The notes beneath the pieces are model-generated. The model was given only the letters and a program-made list of their open reading frames with translations. It did not search any database and was not told the DNA's origin. Both the position numbers and the translations under genes were made by a program. From contig JAGLJW010000006.1 of assembly GCA_023142215.1 (NCBI GenBank), positions 1 to 32,373 of the forward strand: a stretch of DNA of 32,373 nucleotides. The letters are read 5' to 3'. Below are positions 11,901-17,919 of the stretch, piece after piece. Numbering within the stretch: position 1 is the stretch's first letter; the number at the start of each line of letters is the position of its first letter. The DNA is from Candidatus Parcubacteria bacterium (lineage in GTDB: Bacteria > Patescibacteriota > Patescibacteriia > Patescibacteriales > UBA12075).

Positions 11901-12245
11901 CTATTTTACTGAATCAACAATAGCTTTTAAAACCTCCTTATTGTTAACAGCTAAATCTGCTAATACTTTTCTATCTAATTCAATTTTACTCTTTTTTAAA
12001 AGATTAATCAACTTTGAATAACTTAAATCATTTTCTCTAGCAAAAGCATTAATTTTAATTTGCCATAAACCTCTGTTTACTCTTTTTTTCTTTCTTCTAT
12101 CAACAAAAGCATGTGCACCAGCTTTTATTACTGCTGTACTAGCTAATCTAATTAAATTTTTTCTTCCCCATTTGTATCCCTTTACTTTCGCTAATAATGT
12201 CTTTCTTCTTTTTACATGGGTAGTTCCCCTTTTTACTCTAGGCAT
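11901..12245 (-). CDS. rplT: 50S ribosomal protein L20
   Basis: MPRVKRGTTHVKRRKTLLAKVKGYKWGRKNL...; infC-rpmI-rplT synteny. Confidence 0.98.
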   Translation of the reverse strand: MPRVKRGTTHVKRRKTLLAKVKGYKWGRKNLIRLASTAVIKAGAHAFVDRRKKKRVNRGLWQIKINAFARENDLSYSKLINLLKKSKIELDRKVLADLAVNNKEVLKAIVDSVK

Positions 12246-12266: not shown

Positions 12267-12470
12267 CTAATTATATGGTGTTAATCGTTTAATAGTTTTT
12301 ACTAATGAATCATGAGTTTCAATATCACTCCTTTTGTTTCTTTTTGTATTTCCAGATTCTCTTGAATTAAAATGACCTTGCCCCGCTTTTCTTTGAGTCA
12401 TTTTCTTTTTAACACCTCCTGTTAATTTAAACCTTTTAGATGTTGCTTTGTGTGTTTTAATTTTCGGCAT
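12267..12470 (-). CDS. rpmI: 50S ribosomal protein L35
   Basis: MPKIKTHKATSKRFKLTGGVKKK... Confidence 0.97.
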   Translation of the reverse strand: MPKIKTHKATSKRFKLTGGVKKKMTQRKAGQGHFNSRESGNTKRNKRSDIETHDSLVKTIKRLTPYN

Positions 12471-12479
12471 ATCTTTAAC

Positions 12480-12639
12480 GGGTCTGTCGCCAAACTACAG
12501 TTTTGACATAAATTTTCAGATTTTGAGGAAATTTCTTCAAAAATCTTTTCGGCAATATAATAGTATTGGCTAAAACATTTTTGGAGAAATTTACCGAAAT
12601 CTGGGAATTTAGGTCATGCTGTAGTTTGGCGACAGATCC
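12480..12639. mobile_element. MITE-like long imperfect inverted-repeat element
   Basis: GGGTCTGTCGCCAAACTACAG ... CTGTAGTTTGGCGACAGATCC; the two ~75-bp arms are imperfect reverse complements; flanked by TTAAC / TTAAA. Confidence 0.7.
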
Positions 12640-12697
12640 TTAAAATTAATAAGAAATAAAAAACAGGAGAATCCTGATTTTTTAAAAAATTTAAAAA

Positions 12698-13258
12698 TTA
12701 ATCGCTTTTCTTGTTCACGAGTATCATTATAAACCTTCCTCCCTGCTTTGTCAAGTCTTGTTCAGGAATAATATTTAAATCTGGATTTTTATCTAAGGTT
12801 GCAACAAAATCCCTAATAACTTGAGCCGCTTTGGCAGGATGAGCTCGTTCTCTTCCTTTTAAAACTAAATCTATTTTAAGCTTATGTCCCTTAGCAAAAA
12901 ACTTTTCAGCTTGAGCTAAACGAAGATTTACATCATGTTGACTAATACGAACTGACAATCTAATACCTTTAGTCTCCACTTTTTTCTGTTGTTGTTTTTG
13001 TTTATGCGATTTTTTTTCTTGTTCATATTTAAACTGTCCATAATCCATAATCTTGCAAACAGGATAATCACCTTTTGGATTAACCTCCACTAAATCCATT
13101 AAAACATCGCTAGCTTTTTGTAATGCTTCCTCAATAGAAACTTTACCTAATTTTTCACCATTTTCATCAATTAAAAAAACTTTTTTAGCCCTAATTTGTC
13201 TATTAGCTAAAAATTGTTTTTCTTTTGTAGTTTTCGCTTTTCTCCAAGTTCTTCTCAT
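12698..13258 (-). CDS. infC: Translation initiation factor IF-3
   Basis: FLANRQIRAKKVFLIDENGEKLGKVSIEEAL..., MDYGQFKYEQ, synteny. Confidence 0.97.
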   Translation of the reverse strand: MRRTWRKAKTTKEKQFLANRQIRAKKVFLIDENGEKLGKVSIEEALQKASDVLMDLVEVNPKGDYPVCKIMDYGQFKYEQEKKSHKQKQQQKKVETKGIRLSVRISQHDVNLRLAQAEKFFAKGHKLKIDLVLKGRERAHPAKAAQVIRDFVATLDKNPDLNIIPEQDLTKQGGRFIMILVNKKSD

Positions 13259-17325: not shown

Positions 17326-17359
17326 GGGTCTGTTACCAAACTACAGTTTTGGCAGACCC
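17326..17359. repeat. 34-bp minimal relative of the 12480 element
   Basis: GGGTCTGTTACCAAACTACAGTTTTGGCAGACCC; ends as inverted repeats; flanked on both sides by TTTAC (17321-17325, 17360-17364). Confidence 0.65.
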
Positions 17360-17919
17360 TTTACAAATTGTATTATTCCATCAATTTCTTTTTGTGTTCT
17401 TTTATTATAAATTTTAGAAATGTTTTTTAACTTTTTTATTTCTATTCCTCGTAAATTATCAAAATAATAGCCTGGTGTTAAATAAACCCGATCAGCAACC
17501 GCTCTTTCCATTGAAGCAATATTAAAAATACCTTTATTCTCAACACCTAAAGGATTAAACAATATTTCATCCTTTAATTTAAAATAATTAAATCTAATCT
17601 TATCAACTTCATATTGTATGGTATTATTAGATACGGAATAAACACTATTAGAATAATCTTGAAAAATAACAGATTTTTTCTGTAAAACAGTTTCTAAACT
17701 TATATATGAGGGTACTTTTATTTTAGACGCCAATTCAAATGTATTATATAAACTTTTTATAGAATATATTCCACGCTTTACTCTTATTAATTCCCCACGC
17801 TTAAAAAGACGATTTATTATAGTTTTCAGGTAATTTTTATCCTTGATTTTCCAAATTAATCGTAAATCATTCACGCTAAAAACTGTTTTATTTGTTCTTA
17901 TTAATTGTTTTAAATACAT
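17341..17919 (-). CDS. AbiEi-family antitoxin
   Basis: N-terminal wHTH (VNDLRLIWKIKDKNYLKTIINRLFKRGELIRVKRGIYSI) and NIASMERAVADRVYL; upstream of AbiEii. Confidence 0.85.
   Translation of the reverse strand: MYLKQLIRTNKTVFSVNDLRLIWKIKDKNYLKTIINRLFKRGELIRVKRGIYSIKSLYNTFELASKIKVPSYISLETVLQKKSVIFQDYSNSVYSVSNNTIQYEVDKIRFNYFKLKDEILFNPLGVENKGIFNIASMERAVADRVYLTPGYYFDNLRGIEIKKLKNISKIYNKRTQKEIDGIIQFVKGLPKL

Follow-up and report, generated by a model that had tools for sequence, protein, structure and literature searches.

The infC-rpmI spacer of the window, the 32,373-nucleotide stretch of Candidatus Parcubacteria bacterium DNA analysed here, contains a 160-bp near-palindrome that is very probably a non-autonomous transposable element of the DDE type, a MITE (miniature inverted-repeat transposable element), of a family that has spread through the Patescibacteria, in class ABY1 and its neighbours. 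We interpret it as a MITE and not as a conserved leader because it is multicopy, because 5-bp target-site duplications (TSDs) accompany it, and because the same spacer is empty in 24 relatives. The features are listed in Table 1.

Table 1. The hairpin element, its flanks and neighbouring features (positions in the window)
Feature	Position	Strand	Basis and remarks
rplT	11901-12245	-	NCBIfam TIGR01032; follows rpmI
rpmI (L35)	12267-12470	-	NCBIfam TIGR00001, 44.8 bits, just below the cut-off of 51.2; ATG 9 nt beyond the element
Left TSD, TTAAC	12475-12479	.	Sequence and family TSD statistics
Hairpin element, very probable MITE, full-length, 160 bp	12480-12639	+	Written in the arm order with the most stable RNA fold
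Left terminal inverted repeat, GGGTCTGTCGCCAAACTACAG	12480-12500	+	Sequence read
Right terminal inverted repeat, reverse complement of CTGTAGTTTGGCGACAGATCC, with which the element closes	12619-12639	-	Sequence read
Right TSD, TTAAA, 1 mismatch	12640-12644	.	Sequence and family TSD statistics
Terminator-like stem CAGGATTCTCCTG, then TTTTTT, just after infC	12664-12676	-	Sequence; comparison with relatives
infC (IF-3), upstream neighbour	12698-13258	-	NCBIfam TIGR00168
Promoter-like site TTGACA-17-TATAAT (12/12), inside the 3' end of infC	12726-12754	-	Match to the sigma-70 consensus only
34-bp deletion derivative, TSD TTTAC/TTTAC	17326-17359	+	Pattern and sequence match in the window

Hairpin, flanks and empty sites

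The preliminary description had proposed a 160-bp hairpin in this spacer, and its coordinates and ends proved exact: the whole interval folds as a single end-to-end hairpin. The minimum free energy of positions 12470-12650 is -92.1 kcal/mol, compared with -30.9 kcal/mol (sd 3.5) for shuffled sequences (z = -17.6), and 0 of 200 shuffles were as stable. The element is smaller than the 500 bp that bounds MITEs, has no transposase gene, and ends in 21-bp terminal inverted repeats (TIRs) that are nearly identical, as is expected of a MITE. Comparison with the NCBIfam models confirmed its neighbours as infC and rpmI and identified rplT beyond (the rpmI score lying just short of the cut-off; Table 1).

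The two flanks of the window copy agree at four of five positions, a pair that alone is little proof of the target duplication suggested from it. The 5-bp duplication is established at the level of the family. We compared the flanks of 79 two-ended copies from the own genome, from relatives of the order and from other Patescibacteria, and found the 5-mers to be identical in 32 copies (shuffled mean 1.74, maximum 8 in 5,000 shuffles) and to differ by at most one mismatch in 54 (shuffled mean 9.6, maximum 20). No excess was observed in the same 79 copies at lengths of 3, 4, 6 or 8; identical pairs numbered 0 at lengths 6 and 8, and one at length 7. The family is repeated, inserts at AT-rich sites and makes a 5-bp duplication.

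The hairpin was absent from the infC-rpmI spacer in 24 of the 24 relatives with a readable spacer, which belong to other genera. The closest relatives by infC identity (G006, G009 and G011) have spacers of 39-47 bp, and that of the window, with the hairpin, measures 227 bp. To judge from these spacers, the infC-rpmI copy is a lineage-specific insertion of a MITE family that is mobile in evolutionary time. The preliminary description had reasoned that a sequence present once, and conserved at this position in relatives, would be a structured leader; the hairpin is neither, given its many copies and the 24 empty spacers, and the comparison of spacers favours a mobile element.

Copies, deletion derivatives and the genes they touch

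The own genome, an assembly of 92 contigs and 1.19 Mb with a completeness of 87%, holds at least two dozen related copies. Four other copies are full or near-full, with 93-96% identity, those on contigs C27, C7 and C15 being full-length (95-96%), and partial copies occur at contig ends. A search for the inner 18 bp of the left TIR, with up to three mismatches, located 46 places in this genome, and the reversed control pattern located 0. The copies form a size series of 183 bp (a diverged form), 160, 83/84, 73 and 37 bp, down to solo ends of 29-43 bp, in which the 83/84-, 73- and 37-bp forms are internal deletions of the element. Several of the deletion joints fall at short direct repeats (TTTGGC in the 37-bp form, AAATTT in the 83-bp form), as would be expected for slippage across a hairpin. 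The suggestion that the element is MITE-like, and that copies with variable centres would be found, is borne out by the multiple copies and their deleted centres, together with the TSDs and the empty site.

The window itself carries a 34-bp deletion derivative (Table 1), which overlaps the 3' end of a 192-aa ORF (17341-17919, minus strand), so that the last codons and the stop of this ORF are supplied by the element. In the solo-ended copies L013, L023, L046 and L050 (29-43 bp), the 5-mer that flanks the TIR recurs at or beside the truncated side, and these copies could have arisen by one-ended insertion or by a deletion reaching into the distal TSD.

Among the 23 own-genome copies examined, 20 are intergenic, often lying tightly between co-directional genes. 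The remaining three were flagged inside an ORF, one of them in a weak 82-aa frame, and both copies within solid genes preserve the reading frame. The first, a 160-bp copy (L004, 1501-1660), is in frame in a 594-aa membrane protein, to which it adds 55 residues counting the TSD; the second, a 37-bp copy (L041, 1498-1534), adds 14 residues, counted in the same way, to a ComEC protein with Competence and DUF4131 domains. In other genomes, ORFs broken by insertions of the element were found. Rickettsia palindromic elements (RPEs), which are palindromes of ~105-150 bp, present in many copies and found in frame in protein genes (PMC10969869, PMC2229807), resemble these elements in their long predicted stem-loops, in their high copy number within a small genome rich in A and T, and in the in-frame insertion seen for two own-genome copies; the likeness is one of features. 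Unlike RPEs, most copies here are intergenic, and the TSD, given as '?' for RPEs (PMC2229807), is a clear 5 bp.

The hairpin in the putative rpmI-rplT leader

Most of the relatives keep a short stem and a T-run directly after infC (CAGG...CCTGTTTTTT), and the window version of this terminator-like stem (12676-12664) is located downstream of the promoter-like site within infC. Together with the upstream sigma-70 consensus, the stem resembles an attenuator leader of rpmI-rplT. From the positions of the stem and the element, the insertion lies downstream of this attenuator-like structure, with 9 nt left between it and the rpmI ATG. The element has landed between the stem and the rpmI start codon, and, given that position, the rpmI-rplT transcript should carry a hairpin of ~160 nt that stops 9 nt short of the AUG. 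The preliminary description had anticipated a long hairpin in the operon mRNA; its position, which would be in the rpmI-rplT leader, agrees with this, but the mRNA strand is the weaker folder of the two, the element alone reaching -69.6 kcal/mol on that strand versus -89.3 kcal/mol on the plus strand, which is antisense to the operon. In the predicted fold of the leader, the rpmI start region (-15 to +15) is somewhat less open with the element than without it (mean unpaired 0.46 versus 0.65). The most likely consequence, according to this model, would be neutral to mildly reduced translation initiation, the insertion being tolerated rather than selected.

An alternative explanation is that the hairpin is a structured RNA with an action on the rpmI-rplT mRNA, such as a leader that responds to L20/L35 or a hairpin RNA with a regulatory role, and that the other copies are homologous regulators. 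The strong fold is what such an RNA would show. In addition, once the arms are put in a consistent order, the same strand has the more stable RNA fold in 63 of 63 elements (G-U pairs 248 versus 83), and in an alignment of 35 elements the pairs covary on both sides, with G-T exceeding A-C by 106 to 24 on the better-folding strand. The G-T excess, however, is confined to about 7 alignment columns, and A-C to 3; with so few columns, and with the common ancestry of the elements, the strand asymmetry may record conserved differences between the left and right ends. Furthermore, copies flanked by TSDs are found inside ORFs and next to genes that have nothing in common, the strand that folds better is the antisense one in this operon, and none of the 24 relatives read has the hairpin at this site, so that conservation at the same locus in relatives, the mark of a leader, was not seen. 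Rfam gave no match in the window, its L20-leader families included. We consider a structured RNA extremely improbable as an explanation of the family, and return to the reading of the hairpin as a MITE.

Transposase, terminal repeats and spread of the family

For a MITE of this kind, a transposase supplied in trans would bind the ~20-bp TIRs (GGG(T/A)CTGTCGCC...), cut, and insert the element at a target staggered by 5 bp. The hairpins fall into two classes by their TIRs, which are GGG(A/T)CTGTCGCC(G/A)AAT in class I, to which the window copy belongs, and TAGACYTGTTGC in class II; GAC(C)TGTYGC is common to both TIRs, and the cores of the two classes are homologous. Class II TIRs were traced to an intact element of ~1.02 kb in the genome G153, which is bounded by TAGACCTGTTGCGTATTAA and encodes a 299-aa transposase (DDE_Tnp_4, 2.7e-28; NF033581, the IS5-family model, below cut-off). 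A similar element is carried by G417, and the class II TIR TAGACCTGTTGC matches the ends of the elements L221 and L231.

One possible hypothesis is that IS5-family (DDE_Tnp_4-like) transposases mobilise the whole family, the class I TIRs being related to those of class II. The homologous cores beneath different TIRs, the class II TIR at the ends of L221 and L231, and the motif common to both TIRs argue for this view, and class II hairpins share their TIRs with the intact IS5-like element, which brings them close to IS5-family insertion sequences and their MITEs. The window copy, in contrast, has class I TIRs, and no DDE_Tnp_4 gene flanked by GGGACTGTCGCC was found among 381 genomes of the class. 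Nor did the 92 contigs of the own genome, at 87% completeness, yield a DDE_Tnp_4 or DDE_Tnp_1 gene. In addition, TSDs of the IS5 family are usually 2-4 or 8-9 bp long, and the 5 bp found here is outside these lengths. We view mobilisation by IS5-family transposases as a serious possibility, a little short of an even chance.

Several other candidates for the parent were rejected. The DDE_Tnp_1 genes of 16 carrier genomes are without class I TIRs. In G071 (contig C52; L084, 1196-2743), a pair of class I TIRs at a distance of 1548 bp surrounds a 374-aa gene, which is an IS110-family transposase inserted in a hairpin copy. TIR pairs at IS-like distances in Pectobacterium (L195), a viral contig (L210) and an archaeon (L123) were attributed to chance, and an IS4-type fragment at the start of a Magasanikbacteria contig (L215) has unrelated flanks.

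The Magasanikbacteria genome JACRFU01 (G455, L271-L291) contains, in about ten copies, a longer unit that has the hairpin arms as its ends. This unit was seen at contig ends only, the rest of its interior being absent from the assembly: at 9 contig ends on the left and 12 on the right, a TIR and one hairpin arm are followed by a common interior, in which the arms are joined to TATGGACATAATCTTATGAAACCG... with a 23-bp inverted repeat of its own. The start of a gene (MKPYQEFISANDLRSVG...) is found on the left, and the right side closes with a terminator-like sequence. A gene adjoining the unit apparently encodes a DEAD-box helicase. The 5-mers on the two flanks agree in five left/right pairs, where the control gives a mean of 0.72 and a maximum of 4 in 3,000, and because this is above the control, it seems that the longer unit has transposed as such. 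The arms of the hairpin probably represent the two long ends, left and right and slightly unlike each other, of a larger gene-carrying element that has lost its middle. The preliminary description had called for a parent with the same terminal repeats; what was found is the sister set of class II TIRs on an intact IS5-family element and this longer unit with class I arms, and no transposase with class I TIRs.

An origin from a Tn3-like transposon, as for TIMEs (Tn3-derived inverted-repeat miniature elements), is suggested by the 5-bp TSD and by the GGG with which the TIRs start, since TIMEs also duplicate 5 bp, are non-autonomous and have stable transcript folds (PMC4133298). TIMEs, however, are 262 bp long with 38-bp Tn3 TIRs and are usually single-copy, whereas the element here is 160 bp long with a TIR of ~20 bp, none of the 38-bp Tn3 type, and a high copy number, and the sister TIR class resides on an IS5-like element. 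We think that a Tn3-like origin is very unlikely. Correia/NEMIS and RUP elements are, like the hairpins, short intergenic repeats that are A+T-rich, carry TIRs and are believed to depend on mobilisation in trans (PMC2229807), but have 5'-TA termini in place of the GGG start and 5-bp targets of class I.

Homologous hairpins were found in 32 of 98 genomes of the same order. In a pattern search of 85,000 genomes, recurrence among the matches listed was seen only in Patescibacteria (Magasanikbacteria, Falkowbacteria, Kerfeldbacteria, Liptonbacteria, Azambacteria and other Parcubacteria); the matches listed in other phyla are single and look like chance. Some genomes hold a hundred or more related hairpins, and the highest count, 225 TIR ends in ~0.9 Mb, was that of JACRFU01. 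Phage and plasmid collections yielded nothing similar to the element, and pattern scans of viral contigs gave 2, 0 and 1 matches (L210, the chance pair above, L211 and L332). At L134 (3303-3588), near a contig end, three class I elements are nested head-to-tail, each truncating the previous one.

A literature search found no account of MITEs in Patescibacteria, and to our knowledge these bacteria, with their small and streamlined genomes, are not known for them. What is notable in this MITE family is its host group, its copy number and its conserved hairpin core. Conservation reaches further for the core than for the TIRs, an unusual pattern in a MITE that counts against this reading and poses a testable puzzle, namely what the transposase recognises. 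A bolder view, which we regard as unlikely though not far-fetched, is that of a Patescibacteria-wide hairpin superfamily whose asymmetric core would be kept across orders as a ssDNA or RNA fold needed for transposition and whose TIRs would be swapped to follow different transposases, reaching more than 100 copies per Mb and repeatedly adding in-frame peptides and leader hairpins in ultra-small bacteria. A hundred or more copies in one genome of ~0.9 Mb, with assemblies breaking at the copies, would help to explain the many contigs in assemblies of these bacteria. Finally, the filled and empty infC-rpmI sites offer a natural setting in which to test what a hairpin in the leader does to a core ribosomal operon.
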